Shown here in pieces: positions 25,720 through 32,326 of a DNA stretch of 64,000 nt. Source of the stretch: Mycobacterium sp. ITM-2016-00317 (GTDB taxonomy: Bacteria; Actinomycetota; Actinomycetes; Mycobacteriales; Mycobacteriaceae); NCBI RefSeq assembly GCF_002968295.1, contig NZ_CP134399.1, positions 2,666,001 to 2,730,000 of the forward strand, in the 5' to 3' direction. The position numbers were made by a program, and so were the translations under genes. Below the pieces are notes generated by a model that ran no database searches, was not told the origin of the DNA, and was given only the letters and a program-made list of their open reading frames with translations. How positions within the stretch are numbered: the stretch's first letter is position 1; the number at the start of each line of letters is the position of its first letter.

Positions 25720-27012
25720 GTGACGGGCGCCATGAACCCGGAGCGCGACGAGGCGCTCTCACACGGCCAAGGTGCGACCTTGCCCCGTGGTATCCAGGGG
25801 GCGGCCGACCCCAACTTCGGTTGGGCGGTGCGCGCGTTCGCGCAGATGTTCCCGTGGCGCCGGCTCGGCGGCGGAGCCCTGTCGGTGTACCTCGACGGCG
25901 AACCGGTCGTCGACGTGTGGACCGGCTGGGCCGACCGCAGGGGCACCCGGCGCTGGACCGCCGACACTGCGCCGATGGTGTTCTCGGCGACCAAAGGTGT
26001 GGCGGCGACCGTCATCCACCGACTCCACGACCGCGGGCTGATCGACTACGACGCCCCCGTCGCCCAGTACTGGCGCGAGTTCGGCGCGAACGGCAAGTCG
26101 GCGATCACCGTGCGCGACGCACTCCGGCACCGCGCCGGGCTGTCTCAGCTCAACGGCGCCGCCAGGGCAGACCTGCTCGACCACCTGACCATGGAGGAAC
26201 GGCTCGCCGCCGCGCCGATCAGCTGGTTGCACGGGAAGCCCGCTTACCACGCGTTCACGTTCGGCTGGCTGCTGTCGGGCCTGGCCCGATCGGTCACCGG
26301 CAAGGGGATGCGGGAACTGATCCGCACCGAGGTGGCCGCGCCGCTGAACACCGACGGGCTGCACCTCGGGCGCCCACCGGTGCAGGCCCCCACACAGCCG
26401 GCCCAGATCATCGGTCCGCAGTCCCAGCTGCAGAATCCGATGTTCAACCTGGTGGCTCCCCGGATCGCGGCGCTGCCGTTCTCGGCGGCCTTCGGCGCGA
26501 TGTACCTGCCCGGGGTGAAAGCGCTGGTGCAGGGGGATACGCCGCTGCTGGACAGCGAGATCCCGGCGGCCAACGGGGTCGCGACCGCGCGGGCGCTGGC
26601 GCGCATGTACGGCGCGATCGCCAACGGCGGACGTATCGACGGCACCCAGTACCTGTCCAGCCAGACCGCGGCCGAGCTGATCGGCCGGCCGAGCCTGCGC
26701 CTGGACCACAGCATGGTCATGCCGCTGTCGTTCCACCTCGGCTACCACGGACTGCCGCTGCCCGGCGTCATGCCCGGGTTCGGGCACGTCGGTCTCGGCG
26801 GATCGCTCGGCTGGGCCGAGCCGCACACCGGGCTGGCCTTCGGCTACGTGCACAACCGACTGCTCACCCCGCTGGTGGTCAGCGACCAGGCCGGTTTCGT
26901 CACCACCGCCGCGCTGATCCGGCGCGGGGCCGCGCTGGCCCGCAGGAACGGCTATCGGCCGGTGCGCGAGTACGGGGCGGGGTTCGACGACGCGACCGCG
27001 ACCGCGGTCTGA
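25720..27012 (+). CDS. lipL: Serine hydrolase, class C beta-lactamase fold (esterase/lipase LipL)
   Basis: A 430-residue serine hydrolase of the beta-lactamase/DD-peptidase fold (EstB/LipL type), one residue longer than M. tuberculosis LipL (Rv1497). The nucleophile motif SxxK is S89-A-T-K92 (MVFSATKGVAA). The later catalytic Tyr lies in the HGKPAYHAFTFGWLL segment, and the HGxG-like third motif in FGHVGLGGSLGWAE. No signal peptide is visible, though LipL has been described as cell-surface associated. The likely activity is hydrolysis of short-chain esters and possibly beta-lactams. The gene has its own -10 at 25708-25713 and is followed 15 bases later by a convergent membrane-protein gene. 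Confidence 0.9.
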   Translation: MTGAMNPERDEALSHGQGATLPRGIQGAADPNFGWAVRAFAQMFPWRRLGGGALSVYLDGEPVVDVWTGWADRRGTRRWTADTAPMVFSATKGVAATVIHRLHDRGLIDYDAPVAQYWREFGANGKSAITVRDALRHRAGLSQLNGAARADLLDHLTMEERLAAAPISWLHGKPAYHAFTFGWLLSGLARSVTGKGMRELIRTEVAAPLNTDGLHLGRPPVQAPTQPAQIIGPQSQLQNPMFNLVAPRIAALPFSAAFGAMYLPGVKALVQGDTPLLDSEIPAANGVATARALARMYGAIANGGRIDGTQYLSSQTAAELIGRPSLRLDHSMVMPLSFHLGYHGLPLPGVMPGFGHVGLGGSLGWAEPHTGLAFGYVHNRLLTPLVVSDQAGFVTTAALIRRGAALARRNGYRPVREYGAGFDDATATAV

Positions 27013-27027
27013 TCGACCCGGGCTATC

Positions 27028-27762
27028 TCAGCGGTTCGCCCCGGTGAACCAGCGGGTCCGCATCCGCCACGACTGCGCCGACGTGAGCGCGAACCCCGCG
27101 CCGCAGGCGCACGCGAACACCCAGACCAGCGTGGTCCCCTCAACGGTCTGCAACTGCGGGACGAACGCGGTGGTGATGCGCACCAGGCAGGCCAGGATGC
27201 CCATCGTCGACGCGAACAGGTACACGTTGGCGACCTGGCGCGAGCGGGGGTCGGTGCGCAGGATCATCAGCGCCCGCACGCAGTAGGCGAGCAGGTAGAT
27301 CAGCATGCCGCAGAGCAGCAGCCAGTACACGTTGAGCCAGAAGTCGGTGGGCACGTCGAAGAAGTCGGCGCGGTAGATCGACGCGCCGTTGCCGAGCCAG
27401 AACGTGGCGAGCAGAAGCGGAATGCACAACGTCGCCGGACGTTCGATGTGCTGGCGGAACCGTTGCTGGAGCGCGTGGTCCTGTTCCAGCCGGCCCAGCG
27501 TGTTGTAGACCACCGCGGACGCGGCCACGATGTAGAAATCGTGGGCCAGATAGTCCTCGAGATTCCACTTGCCGGTCAGCGCGTGGAGCAGCGGACCGAC
27601 CGTTTCGGACGCCAGCGGCGACATCAACAACACCGCAGCCCCGTGCAGGGCGATGTTGAGAGTCGCGGCCACTTCCCACCGGCATGACCAGGTCACTCGG
27701 CGAATCCACAAGCTCCACCCGATGCATATCAGGGTGATCACGATGAGTGATGCAAGAGCCAT
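27028..27762 (-). CDS. Seven-helix membrane protein of the accessory cassette
   Basis: A 244-residue integral membrane protein with about seven predicted helices (SLIVITLICIGWSLWI; VAATLNIALHGAAVLLM; FYIVAASAVVYNTL; LCIPLLLATFWLGNGA; LNVYWLLLCGMLIYLLAYC; VYLFASTMGILACLVRI; LVWVFACACGAGFAL). The pattern, and the stretch LTGKWNLEDYLAHDFYIVAA, resemble the N-terminal membrane half of the actinobacterial MAB_1171c-type putative transporters, but without the C-terminal cytosolic domain. It lies 53 bases downstream of the HTH gene on the same strand, so the two are probably one operon. The function is unknown. M. tuberculosis has no counterpart in this position. Confidence 0.7.
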   Translation of the reverse strand: MALASLIVITLICIGWSLWIRRVTWSCRWEVAATLNIALHGAAVLLMSPLASETVGPLLHALTGKWNLEDYLAHDFYIVAASAVVYNTLGRLEQDHALQQRFRQHIERPATLCIPLLLATFWLGNGASIYRADFFDVPTDFWLNVYWLLLCGMLIYLLAYCVRALMILRTDPRSRQVANVYLFASTMGILACLVRITTAFVPQLQTVEGTTLVWVFACACGAGFALTSAQSWRMRTRWFTGANR

Positions 27763-27815
27763 TGGGAATCGCTTTCGAGCGTGCCGTTGTCAGCAAATTG
27801 TAGGCGCCGATGCCG

Positions 27816-28190
27816 TCAAAGGGGAGGAGCGTCCAGTCGGGGTGTCAGATCGGCGAGCCGCGTGCGTCGCCCGGTGTCCGCCTTTGTCGTGGTCGTGGGC
27901 TGTGTGGCGACCGCGGCGGGGGTCCGGCCCGTCGCCTCGACGTACTGCCAGATCTCCTGCCGGCTCATCAGGCCGAACTGAATCTGCAGGTCCGGGTAGC
28001 TAAGACCGAAGCGGTCGGCGACCAGGCGCAGCTCCTCGGCCGAGGGGTAGTCGGCTTCTTTGATGCGCCGGTAATACGTGCTGCTGGAGATGCCGAGCGC
28101 GTCGATCAGGTCCTTGGCGTCGATCTCTCCGTCCAGCAGATAGTCGAGCAGGGCTTTCAACTGTCTGCCGTTCTCGTCCGTGCGGGGCAT
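27816..28190 (-). CDS. HTH transcriptional regulator of the accessory cassette
   Basis: A 124-residue protein. The N-terminal 65 residues are a lambda-repressor-like/XRE helix-turn-helix (LLDGEIDAKDLIDALGISSS, then TYYRRIKEADYPSAEELRLV), and the second half (about 85-124) is Thr/Pro/Ala-rich and probably disordered. It is divergent from the condensation-like gene, and the shared 136-base region holds a triple TGGGA/TCCCA operator, so autoregulation plus control of the neighbour is likely. Start ATG 28188-28190 lies 6 bases after a TAAGGT hexamer. Mycobacteriophage-type repressors look similar, but no other phage gene is present. Confidence 0.75.
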   Translation of the reverse strand: MPRTDENGRQLKALLDYLLDGEIDAKDLIDALGISSSTYYRRIKEADYPSAEELRLVADRFGLSYPDLQIQFGLMSRQEIWQYVEATGRTPAAVATQPTTTTKADTGRRTRLADLTPRLDAPPL

Positions 28191-28196
28191 TTGACC

Positions 28197-28202
28197 ACCT
28201 TA
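28197..28202 (-). promoter_or_regulatory. -10 hexamer TAAGGT, leaderless promoter of the HTH-membrane protein operon
   Basis: On the minus strand TAAGGT is followed by 6 bases and the ATG at 28190. No ribosome-binding site is visible. The promoter faces away from the operator array at 28279-28304. Confidence 0.45.
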
Positions 28203-28278
28203 ATGTGCGATCCCCCGTTTGGGCATCCCCTCCCGGCAAATACATGGCACGCTCTTTATTGACATAGCCGTCACAGTT

Positions 28279-28304
28279 TTGGGAGCGGTCTCCCAATTCT
28301 GGGA
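28279..28304. promoter_or_regulatory. Triple half-site operator in the divergent HTH/condensation-like region
   Basis: TTGGGAG (28279-28285), CGGT, CTCCCAA (28290-28296) form a perfect 7-bp dyad. The right arm also forms a second dyad, TCCCA (28291-28295), ATTC, TGGGA (28300-28304). Three alternating half-sites are therefore spaced about 11 and 9 bases apart, one helical turn each. The array covers the -35 position of the TACGGT promoter at 28314-28319, a place where a bound repressor would block transcription. The adjacent HTH protein is the obvious candidate ligand. Confidence 0.6.
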
Positions 28305-28313
28305 CATTCGCTG

Positions 28314-28319
28314 TACGGT
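28314..28319 (+). promoter_or_regulatory. -10 hexamer TACGGT, leaderless promoter of the condensation-like gene
   Basis: The hexamer ends 7 bases before ATG 28327, with no ribosome-binding site. The operator array lies immediately upstream over the -35 region. Confidence 0.45.
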
Positions 28320-28326
28320 TAGCCAC

Positions 28327-28933
28327 ATGGTCGCTCCATACATCTCGGACGAGGTCAAACAACGGCCCGTCCTGTCCGCGCTGAAATCGCTGGATGTGTT
28401 CGATCGCGTAGCGATCGACGTGCTGCCCGCCCGCTCGCTGAAGTTCGGCACCGTGCCGTCGAGCGAACTGACCGAGGAACTCGACGGCGCCGCGGAATGG
28501 CTGGGAGTGCCCGGCCGAGGAGATTCTGCTGGCCGCCCTCGGCCGCACCTTCGGTCGCACCCGCGGCGACGGAACCGTGGCCGTCGACGTCACCGGCGGC
28601 CACCGCTGGCTCAACCATCCGGTGGCCGTGGCGTGCACGGCCGACCCGGAGGTCGGTCCCACCGAGATGTTGCAGAGTGCGCACAGCGCGCTGGCCGGAT
28701 CGCCCGGCCATCCGGTCGCGCAGTCCGAGGTGTTGCTGAACGTCGCCGACGGGGCGGACGAGGGCCCGAGCGCCCGCGCGCTCGAGTTGCGCGTGCAGCG
28801 CGTGGGCGATCTGCTGCAGATCGACTGGTGGTACGACGAGTCCCGCCTGGACGCGTACTCGGTGCAGGAGTTGGCCGAGCAGTTCCCGCTGGCCGTTGTC
28901 GAGATCACCTCGGACGCTGCGGCGCCACGCTAG
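28327..28933 (+). pseudogene. Condensation-domain-like protein, frame broken by a 1-base insertion
   Basis: The first frame (MVAPYISDEVKQRPVLSALK...SELTEELDGAAEWL) is lost at about 28504 in a GGG run. Removing one G joins it to ECPAEEILLAALGRTFGRTR, then VAVDVTGGHRWLNHPVAV, and finally DLLQIDWWYDESRLDAYSVQ ending at TAG 28931-28933. The rebuilt protein is about 201 residues. The C-terminal pattern (V.dGrL.idWWYD..rld..sv.eLAe.f..a) resembles the second lobe of NRPS condensation/epimerisation domains, but the first lobe with HHxxxD is absent. So it is a half-domain or a relative of unknown function. It is the plus-strand member of the HTH/membrane cassette and ends just before the ileS riboswitch. 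Pseudogene or sequencing error. Confidence 0.6.
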
Positions 28934-28949: not shown

Positions 28950-28955
28950 GGGGCG

Positions 28956-29173
28956 ATCGGCGTCGATCCGGCCATCACCGGGGAGCCTTCGGAAGAACGG
29001 TGGGAGCGCCGGTCGCGCTCACGCCCAGTAGAACCGAACGGGTGGGCCCGTCATCGCCTGACATGAGCGGCGCACCCAGGGTGCGCAAGCGGGGTGGTAC
29101 CGCGGCGCTCGCGCACCGGCGCGACGTTCGTCCCCGTGCCTGAATTCGACATGGCACGAGGAGCACGACGTCC
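28956..29173 (+). promoter_or_regulatory. Translational T-box riboswitch (tRNA-Ile sensor) upstream of ileS
   Basis: The leader carries the hallmarks of an actinobacterial T-box. An AUC isoleucine specifier can be placed at 28974-28976 (GCCATCACCGG). The conserved AGTAGAACCGAACGGG lies near 29028-29043, and the canonical T-box GGTGGTACCGCGG begins at 29092. Its UGGU bulge (29095-29098) can pair with the ACCA end of uncharged tRNA-Ile. TCCCCGTGCC (29131-29140) can pair with GGCACGAGGA (29153-29162) with one mismatch, masking the AGGAG ribosome-binding site (29159-29163). Alternatively the same C-run pairs with GGGG (29091-29094) in the antisequestrator. Uncharged tRNA-Ile should therefore open translation of ileS, rather than antiterminate transcription. 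Confidence 0.93.
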
Positions 29174-32100
29174 GTGACCGCCTATCCGAAGCCCGCCGCT
29201 GGCGCTCCGAAGTTCCCGACGCTGGAAGCCGATGTGCTCAGCTACTGGGACAGCGACGACACCTTCAGGGCCAGTGTCGCGCGCCGCGACGGTGCGCCCG
29301 AATACGTGTTCTACGACGGGCCCCCGTTCGCGAACGGGCTGCCCCACTACGGTCACCTGCTCACCGGCTACGTCAAGGACATCGTGCCGCGCTACCGCAC
29401 GATGCGCGGCTACAAGGTGGACCGCCGGTTCGGCTGGGACACCCACGGCCTGCCCGCCGAGCTGGAGGTGCAGCGCCAACTCGGCATCACCGACAAGGCC
29501 CAGATCGAAGAGATGGGCATCGAGAAGTTCAACGACGCGTGCCGGGAGTCGGTGCTCAAGTACACCGGTGAGTGGCGCGAGTACGTCACCCGTCAGGCGC
29601 GGTGGGTCGACTTCGACAACGACTACAAGACCTTGGACATCGGCTTCATGGAGTCGGTGATCTGGGTCTTCAAACAGCTCTGGGACAAGGGCCTGGCCTA
29701 CGAGGGCAACCGGGTGCTGCCGTACTGCTGGAACGACGAGACCCCGTTGTCCAGCCACGAGCTGCGGATGGACGACGACGTCTACCAGGACCGGCAGGAC
29801 CCCGCGCTGACGGTGGGCTACCGGGTGGACGGGGGACCGGTCCCGGATCTGGTCGGCGCCTATCTGCTGATCTGGACCACGACGCCGTGGACGTTGCCGT
29901 CCAACCAGGCGGTCGCGGTCAACCCCGATGTCACCTACGTCGTGGTCGAGGCCGACGGGCGCCGCTACGTGCTCGCCGAGTCGCGGCTCGGCGCGTACGC
30001 GCGGGAACTGGGCGAGGAGCCCACGGTCGTGTCCATCTACACCGGACGCGACCTGCTCGACGTGCACTACGCGCCGCCGTTCCCGTACTTCATGGACTCG
30101 CCCAACGCGTTCCGGGTGCTGCCCGCCGATTTCGTCAGCACCGAGGACGGCACCGGCCTGGTCCACATGTCGCCGGCCTACGGCGAGGACGACATGGCCA
30201 CCGCCCAGGCGGGCGGGATCGAGGCCGTGACCCCGGTGGACGCCAAGGGGCGCTTCGACGCGACCGTCCCCGACTACGCGGGCCAGCACGTGTTCGACGC
30301 CAACCCGCAGATCATCCGCGATCTCAAGAACGGGTCGGGCGCCGCGGCCGCCAACGGCGCGGTCCTGCTGCGCCACGACACCTACGAGCACTCCTATCCG
30401 CACTGCTGGCGCTGCCGCAATCCGCTGATCTACCGGGCGGTGTCGTCCTGGTTCATCAAGGTCACTCAGTTCCGCGACCGCATGGTCGAGCTGAACCAGC
30501 AGATCACCTGGTATCCCGAGCACGTCAAGGACGGCCAGTTCGGCAAGTGGCTGCAGGGCGCGCGGGACTGGTCGATCTCCCGGAACCGCTACTGGGGCAC
30601 GCCGATTCCGGTGTGGAAGTCCGACGATCCGGCCTACCCGAGGATCGATGTCTACGGCAGCCTCGACGAACTCGAACGCGACTTCGGGGTCCGGCCCGAC
30701 AACCTGCACCGGCCGTACATCGACGAGCTGACCCGGCCCAACCCCGACGACCCGACCGGCAAGTCGACGATGCGGCGCATCGAGGACGTGCTCGACGTGT
30801 GGTTCGACTCCGGGTCGATGCCCTACGGGCAGGTGCACTACCCGTTCGAGAACCAGGACTGGTTCGAGTCGCACTACCCGGGTGACTTCATCGTCGAGTA
30901 CATCGGGCAGACCCGCGGCTGGTTCTACACGCTGCACATCTTGGCCACCGCGCTGTTCGACCGGCCGGCGTTCCGCACGTGCGTCTCGCACGGCATCGTG
31001 CTGGGCAACGACGGGCAGAAGATGAGCAAGTCGCTGCGCAACTACCCGGACGTGTCGGAGGTGTTCGACCGCGACGGCTCCGACGCGATGCGCTGGTTCC
31101 TGATGGCGTCGCCGATCCTGCGCGGCGGCAACCTGGTCGTCACCGAGCAGGGCATCCGCGAAGGGGTGCGGCAGGTGCTGCTGCCGTTGTGGAACGCGTA
31201 TACGTTCCTGGCGCTCTACGCTCCCGAGAAGGGCACCTGGCGCACCGATTCGCAGCACGTGCTGGACCGCTACATCCTGGCCAAACTCGCGGTGCTGCGT
31301 GACGAGCTGACTGCCTCGCTCGACGTCTGCGACATCTCGCAGGCCTGCGACCAGCTGCGCCAGTTCACCGAGGCATTGACGAACTGGTATGTGCGGCGGT
31401 CACGTTCACGTTTCTGGGAAGAGGACTCCGACGCGATCGACACCCTGCACACCGTGCTGGAGGTGACCTGCCGGCTGGCCGCTCCGCTGCTGCCGCTGAT
31501 CACCGAGCGGATCTGGCGCGACCTGACCGGTGAGCGGTCGGTGCACCTGACGGACTGGCCCGAACCGGGTGTCGTGCCCGCCGACCCGCAACTGGTCGAC
31601 GAGATGGACCTGGTGCGCGACGTCGCGTCGGCCGGGTCGTCGCTGCGCAAGGCCAAGAAACTGCGGGTGCGCCTGCCGCTGCCGAAATTGACGGTGGCAG
31701 TTGATGATCCGGCGCGGCTGGCACCCTACCGGGATATCATCGCCGACGAGCTCAACGTCAAGTCCGTCGAGCTCACCGACGACATCGCCGCGCACGGCCG
31801 CTTCGAGTTGACCGTCAACGCCCGCGTCGCGGGCCCGCGCATCGGCAAGGACGTGCAGGCCGCGATCAAGGCGGTCAAAGCGGGGGAGGCGGTCGTCAAC
31901 GACGACGGCACCCTGACCGCGGGCCCGGCCGTGTTGCAGCCCGAGGAGTACAGCTCGCGGCTGGTGGCGGCGGAGCCACGGGAGACGGAGCGCAGCGGAG
32001 CTCGACCCGAGGATGTGTACACCGCGGCACTGCCCGACGGCGCGGGCCTGGTGGTGCTCGACGGCACCGTAACCCCTGAGTTGGAGGCCGAGGGCTGGGC

Positions 32101-32326
32101 CAAGGACCGGATCAGGGAACTGCAGGAGCTGCGCAAGTCGACGGGTCTTGAGGTATCCGACCGCATCGCCGTGGTGATGTCGGTGCCCGCACAGCATCAG
32201 GAGTGGGCGCAGACGCACCGAGACCTCATCGCCGGGGAGATCCTGGCGACCAGCTTCGAGTTCGGTGAACCCGACGGCGGGACGGAGATCGGCGACGGCG
32301 TGTGCGTGGCCATCGCCAAGGCCTGA
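29174..32326 (+). CDS. ileS: Isoleucyl-tRNA synthetase
   Basis: Charges tRNA-Ile with isoleucine. The 1050-residue class I synthetase is of the long 'eukaryote-like' IleS type found in actinobacteria (M. tuberculosis IleS, 1041). The HIGH motif is HYGH at about residue 57 ([18 protein letters not shown]). The KMSKS motif lies at about residue 615 ([12 protein letters not shown]), with the editing domain ([14 protein letters not shown]...) in between and a C-terminal anticodon-binding and tail region. The GTG at 29174 follows an AGGAG by 10 bases, and that AGGAG is sequestered by the T-box. Expression should rise when isoleucyl-tRNA runs low. A short Glu/Arg-rich insert ([13 protein letters not shown]) sits near residue 935. 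Confidence 0.97.

Follow-up and report, generated by a model that had tools for sequence, protein, structure and literature searches.

What kind of system is formed when the gene of a membrane protein, the gene of a regulator and a divergently transcribed half of a condensation domain stand together between lipL and ileS? The question arises in a stretch of 64,000 nucleotides of Mycobacterium sp. ITM-2016-00317 (hereafter the window; C1:2666001-2730000 of the single-contig 6.06-Mb genome G000), where the three genes encode a seven-transmembrane (7-TM) protein, a helix-turn-helix (HTH) protein and a protein resembling the C-terminal lobe (C-lobe) of condensation domains. A first-pass annotation had described the membrane and HTH genes as one minus-strand operon facing a divergent condensation-like gene; the open reading frames (ORFs) agree with this, and the placement between lipL and ileS is borne out by an NCBIfam equivalog and by aligning orthologues, respectively. 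We propose, at a little short of an even chance, that the unit is fixed in the chromosome and related to the switch that governs lysogeny in temperate mycobacteriophages, and that a membrane receptor would gate its repressor via the C-terminal tail.

Conservation of the unit and its operator

Searching named genomes with a 7-TM alignment yielded 144 relatives, of which we kept 80, all titled Mycobacterium, Mycolicibacterium or Mycobacteriaceae. Judged by domain coordinates, the order and orientation of the C-lobe, HTH and 7-TM genes are the same in 79 of these 80 loci (75 of 80 by a cruder test on ORF ends); the exception, L155, has no match for the HTH or the C-lobe gene in its stretch. The gene ileS lies no more than 3 kb away in 78 of the 79 ordered loci, L130 being the exception. 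The three genes, whose co-occurrence the first-pass annotation had left to be established, are hence kept as a unit. Its description of the locus as an accessory cassette does not survive: an accessory or mobile cassette is ruled out because gene order and ileS linkage are conserved and a plasmid search gave no match. The earlier interpretation is supported in part.

The unit is common in the genus. In an even draw of 118 genomes, with a strong 7-TM match defined by an E-value below 1e-100, 58 genomes have such a match and 55 have a stand-alone C-lobe match, five of the latter being flagged with an internal stop (G041, G063, G077, G087, G109); both are present in 53. The 7-TM gene occurs alone in five genomes, namely G008 (near a contig end), G030, G071, G094 and G117. 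In 249 genomes of the order, the HTH profile gave three weak matches outside the genus, and the C-lobe matches there were weak too (best E 7e-7) and located in longer frames. Purifying selection acts on all three genes, with a median ratio of nonsynonymous to synonymous changes (pN/pS, over 18 pairs) of 0.25 for the C-lobe gene, 0.08 for the HTH gene and 0.12 for the 7-TM gene.

A distance of 136 bp separates the start codons of the HTH and C-lobe genes in the window; in relatives it is 134-149 bp, apart from six rows (110-278 bp) in which the choice of the C-lobe start is uncertain. The strong shared operator that the first-pass annotation had placed between the genes is recovered as a block consisting of TTGAC-N6-GTCAC, the inverted repeat TTGGGAG-N3-TCTCCCAA and a third TGGGA half-site; the consensus over 80 aligned rows is near-invariant (TTGAC-N6-GTCAC, TTTTGGGAG-N3-TCTCCCA, third TGGGA). 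A scan of 116 genomes with this pattern (at most three mismatches) finds one copy per genome in 52 genomes, always at this locus, and the reversed control pattern has no match in the same 116. All 52 copies are flanked by the C-lobe and 7-TM genes, or adjoin the sole one of the two on the contig (G008, G013), and in the window's own genome the operator occurs at this place alone (as two overlapping readings of the palindrome). The operator is therefore a site of this locus and not of a regulon. At 14 paralogue loci, the TTGGGA half-site is found once and the TTGAC-N6-GTCA element in none. A TANNNT element precedes the C-lobe ATG by 6 or 7 nucleotides in all 74 rows tested (the six rows with an uncertain start were excluded), which suggests leaderless transcripts at this gene; on the HTH side, relatives have a looser TANNN[TG], mostly 6 or 9 nucleotides before the ATG, and the HTH gene may start leaderless as well.

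Phage homologues and a conserved tail

Both minus-strand genes have homologues in mycobacteriophages. Searching with the 7-TM protein (tblastn) gave 360 records, all of them Mycobacterium phages, 341 of which cover at least 80% of the query; the best identity, 68.8%, is reached by Gaia and Nebkiss. The HTH protein, for which no Pfam family scores above its gathering score, matches 166 phage records at E<=1e-3, with 27-43% identity over 60-71% of the query (the N-terminal part) and no record covering 80% of it. Among the 60 HTH matches listed, 49 are labelled immunity repressor, transcriptional repressor or repressor. For the C-lobe protein, no phage match was found.

We opened 24 phage loci, 20 from across the 7-TM list and four from the HTH list, a selection that is not random. 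A repressor-type gene adjoins the 7-TM gene in all 24, co-directional and with the repressor first in 19, and as a convergent pair in five (MalagasyRose, Phrappuccino and three M. abscessus prophages). The 24 phage 7-TM genes are labelled just hypothetical or membrane protein, and the products of all 24 match our 7-TM profile A2; the host HTH profile recovers 20 of the 24 repressors (E 4e-13 to 3e-34). Labels and profile disagree in both directions: the products of MalagasyRose, Phrappuccino, WXIN and LeBron are labelled hypothetical yet match, and those of TeardropMSU, KashFlow, prophiGD102-1 and prophiGD15-1 are labelled immunity repressor yet do not. The divergent neighbour of the phage repressor carries a Cro label in 11 loci, is another HTH or repressor gene in nine and is unnamed in four. 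A tree of 56 7-TM proteins from hosts and phages places the chromosomal group near Gaia and a phage set. Hosts and phages are intermixed in it, with four changes of label (bootstrap 3-5), only one of them forced by well-supported branches; the tree has several open forks and long branches, and we read no origin or direction from it.

The chromosomal HTH proteins end in DAPPL in 77 of 79 orthologues (DAPxL in 79 of 79) after a linker of variable length (33-53 aa in the 74 measured), and among the distant host paralogues listed, 12 of 15 have PPL or PPV as their last residues. Among the phage repressors, a strict [PS]P[LVM] end is found in 12 of 24, versus one of 157 other genes of the same loci, a contrast whose Fisher value of 1.8e-11 overstates the case because the rows are related. 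Near forms are RQDAPPI (KashFlow), RKDAPPLG (Phrappuccino), PDASPLH (prophiGD03-1), RGDADPL (Thyatira, Psycho) and QVDAPGI (Aminay); the proline motif is absent from the repressor ends of ZoeJ, Strobilo, Validus, Nutello, Sunflower1121 and SirPhilip. Two M. abscessus prophage repressors that group apart by similarity bear the tail, too. In Giles, a single phage without the 7-TM protein (n=1), gp47, which we take to be the repressor, has no such tail, and the adjacent gp46 fails the 7-TM profiles.

The membrane protein offers a possible counterpart. As claimed earlier, the 244-residue protein has seven helices in its predicted model (predicted local distance difference test score, pLDDT, 93.1), in a GPCR-like (G protein-coupled receptor) arrangement, and its charges predict an N-out/C-in orientation. 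Intracellular loops ICL1 (3.41 bits) and ICL3 (3.16 bits) are more conserved than extracellular loops ECL2 (1.89 bits) and ECL3 (1.40 bits). Of eight invariant residues in alignment A2, seven (W19, R21, T24, E30, R91, R169, W232) are located at predicted cytoplasmic ends, and among the 56 host and phage proteins R91 is kept in 56, R21 in 55, and E30 and W232 in 54 each. A conserved HTH tail together with a conserved cytoplasmic face of the 7-TM protein is the pattern expected of a docking pair, and on the strength of this pattern the tail may dock to the 7-TM protein.

A putative membrane-gated switch and its alternatives

The third protein was analysed in intact relatives (186-221 aa among the 54 aligned), the frame in the window being left as read. 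The condensation C-lobe fold was found for an intact relative (L104), and the N-lobe active-site motif HHxxxDG occurs in none of the 54 sequences, in line with the earlier assignment to the second lobe only; such a stand-alone half condensation domain is unusual. The nearest relative found in the window's own genome is the C-terminal domain of a polyketide synthase (PKS; hmmsearch i-E 3.5e-42, model positions 8-195), to which a DNA match also links the gene, and this PKS adjoins DrrA-like, DrrB-family and PapA5-type genes. We further note that loci L209 and L210 of this genome (C1:3008000-3046000), which is close to M. vaccae, form a locus of phthiocerol dimycocerosate (PDIM) type with large PKS frames, DrrA and DrrB-family genes and a PapA5-type equivalog above its cut-off; that another copy, in L211 (G332), may be broken as well, its C-lobe match bearing a flag for an in-frame TGA; and that the C-lobe proteins of the window's clade (L104 and close relatives) often end in DAAAPL, like the HTH tail, a trait that is not family-wide.

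Judged by its anatomy, the unit would work as a repressor switch with a membrane partner. Bound at the intervening operator block, the HTH protein would repress the C-lobe gene on one side and its own operon on the other; the 7-TM protein, with its GPCR-like helix arrangement, would reside in the membrane and bind the conserved HTH tail at its cytoplasmic face; and a signal in or outside the membrane would release or capture the repressor. The putative output gene occupies the position where many phages have cro, and its product, a half condensation domain that lacks the active-site motif, is probably a binding or adaptor protein. On this proposal the three-gene unit is a stable chromosomal switch made from relatives of the phage HTH/7-TM pair and a new output gene.

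The kinship with the PKS suggests a more specific role for the output, namely that the C-lobe protein descends from the C-terminal domain of a PpsE-like PKS and, as a decoy or adaptor for carrier proteins, acts as the effector in a pathway of polyketides or lipids, by which the switch would control an envelope lipid. The closest relative found in the own genome and its DrrA-like, DrrB-family and PapA5-type neighbours speak for such a role. We consider it improbable: 38 of the 55 genomes with a stand-alone C-lobe gene have no strong PpsE-like domain, 31 genomes have the domain without the C-lobe protein, the two are, if anything, negatively associated (odds ratio 0.43, p 0.04, in related genomes), and HHxxxDG is absent throughout. 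A dependence on PpsE is rejected, because only 17 of the 55 C-lobe genomes have a PpsE-like domain. A lipid effector can also hold alongside the proposed phage-type switch.

Two other explanations concern the unit itself. The three genes could be unrelated neighbours, held together merely by their place upstream of ileS, a linkage that is near constant among the 79 loci. We regard this as very improbable because in hosts the HTH and 7-TM genes also pair up at places away from ileS, and they do so in phages as well; the operator, moreover, sits at this locus in all 52 genomes having one. A far stronger contender, in our estimate still unlikely, is that the 7-TM protein acts independently and shares only its expression with the repressor, for example as a superinfection-exclusion or membrane-defence protein of phages that the host has kept, and that the HTH protein works alone. 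Prophage-expressed defence genes are known, as in the case of Sbash gp30/31, which has been compared with lambda RexAB (PMC6426596), and gene adjacency alone is compatible with such a partner, as are the absence of the strict tail from half of the phage repressors and the conservation of ECL1 and some extracellular-side residues. PADLOC, on the other hand, finds no match for the window's 7-TM and HTH proteins or for the L104 C-lobe protein. We favour a contact over an independent partner, because it better explains the constancy of R91, the fact that, of the long loops, ICL1 and ICL3 are conserved best, and a near-invariant tail behind a variable linker.

A number of observations nevertheless weigh against a membrane-gated, phage-type switch. 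It is by position that the operator would belong to the HTH protein, and four of the 55 C-lobe genomes (G002, G049, G052, G070) have no operator match. Conservation of the 7-TM protein is not solely cytoplasmic: the short ECL1 reaches 3.10 bits and ICL2 2.44 bits, and W214 (53 of 56) and W142 (51 of 56), on the opposite side in the model, are nearly as constant as the cytoplasmic residues. Of the 12 phage repressors that lack the strict tail, eight are from Weiservirinae. In three genomes (G030, G094, G117) a 7-TM orthologue accompanies another HTH subtype, with no C-lobe gene. The window's own C-lobe gene reads in two pieces, with model positions 1-62 in one frame (28327-28512), 59-204 in another (28502-28927) and the break near 28500-28512. 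While its HTH and 7-TM proteins belong to the phage module, the window holds no integrase and no cro. Finally, the resemblance to GPCRs is geometric, with 6-17% identity and a best Foldseek E-value of 0.014.

If the 7-TM protein serves the repressor tail as a receptor, lysogeny in these phages depends on a membrane signal, and in bacteria a transcription factor would be under the direct control of a GPCR-like receptor. A wider generalisation, plausible but in our estimate unlikely, holds that phages and hosts share a receptor-coupled repressor, in which a GPCR-shaped 7-TM protein grips the HTH tail and uses a membrane or extracellular signal to gate the repressor, the window containing a host-owned copy that drives the C-lobe protein instead of lytic genes. 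Were this true, phages would use it to make lysogeny depend on the envelope or on other cells. The unit in the chromosome is a test bed for laboratory strains and an example of how a phage-type switch can become a property of the host.

Locus layout and related systems

The features of the locus are compiled in the table below. The neighbourhood of mutB, meaB, lipL, ileS and dinB recurs around the three-gene unit in relatives; lipL alone was assigned by a family search, and the other four names are those we presume to apply, that of ileS having been given by the first-pass annotation and being supported here by orthologues that align over its full length. The closest named locus is that of Mycolicibacterium vaccae, with 97% identity of the 7-TM protein. 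At loci L083-L088 three or four 7-TM paralogues stand in tandem behind an HTH gene; the genomes concerned also have PpsE-like domains. PMC3662644 reports a weak GlnR site at MSMEG_3166, which it lists as a beta-lactamase; this gene is probably lipL, which would place the site at the lipL region. A literature search without phage terms found no account of the locus or of MSMEG_3167/3168, presumably the tags between lipL and ileS.

Table. Features of the locus, in window coordinates.
Feature	Position	Strand	Basis
7-TM membrane protein, 244 aa	27028..27762	-	ORF; structure model; charge and conservation; phage homologues
HTH repressor-like protein, 124 aa	27816..28190	-	ORF; phage repressor similarity; profile matches
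Codons of HTH C-terminal tail DAPPL, proposed docking motif	27819..27833	-	orthologue and phage tails
Divergent regulatory region, 136 bp	28191..28326		length and sequence conserved in relatives
Operator block	28259..28304	+	alignment of 80 rows; genome pattern scan
TANNNT -10-like element, 6 nt before HTH ATG	28197..28202	-	sequence
TANNNT -10-like element, 7 nt before C-lobe ATG	28314..28319	+	74/74 rows tested
Condensation C-lobe gene, frame broken in window	28327..28933	+	ATG 28327, stop 28933
lipL, flanking gene	25720..27012	+	NCBIfam equivalog, 744 bits vs cut-off 650
T-box leader of ileS	28954..29138	+	28.3 bits, below Rfam gathering score
ileS, flanking gene	29174..32326	+	ORF; orthologues align over its length

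Several known systems share parts of this make-up. The predicted 7-TM model has a strong geometric match to the seven-helix receptor fold of GPCRs; sequence searches with the protein gave no homology to GPCRs, the likeness being one of fold only, and G proteins of the GPCR-coupling kind are not known from bacteria. Condensation and epimerization domains of nonribosomal peptide synthetases (NRPS), represented most closely in the own genome by the PpsE-like PKS, have a first lobe and HHxxxDG, whereas the window protein has neither, stands alone and is about 55 residues shorter than the PKS lobe in the alignment.

A further likeness is to the MAB_1171c family (NF042915), with whose N-terminal membrane part the window 7-TM protein aligns (hhalign E 2.2e-6, probability 89%). 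The protein itself does not match the family model (curated cut-off 100 bits); seven of the 32 members of A2 match at E<=5 (best 9.5e-8), and two members scored 15-16 bits. The MAB_1171c family has a C-terminal DUF6545 (present in L214 and L219), whereas DUF6545 is not found in the Pfam matches of the 32 members and the window protein is without it. Genes of MAB_1171c type lie about 0.5-0.6 kb downstream of HTH_3 genes (L214, L219, L223), which speaks for the proposed switch; in L214 and L219 there is an extra gene in between (CapP-like in L214), unlike the arrangement in the window. In L214, L219 and L220, from other families of the order, HTH and peptidase-like genes stand beside DUF6545 7-TM genes; the peptidase-like gene of L220 has a weak M78 match, and CapH/CapP-like PADLOC matches are confined to the neighbours in L214. 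Our literature search, made without phage terms, found nothing on the MAB_1171c family beyond PMC8707978.

The closest counterparts are the immunity loci of mycobacteriophages (Gaia gp68/67, Cheetobro gp47/46, ZoeJ gp45/44, TeardropMSU gp51/50), in which a repressor-type HTH gene and a 7-TM gene lie side by side as in the window. The window HTH protein resembles the phage repressors in its N-terminal part only. Most of the phage loci have a divergent control gene, whereas the divergent gene of the window encodes a condensation C-lobe in place of Cro; and, unlike a phage immunity locus, the locus of the window is fixed near ileS across many species.
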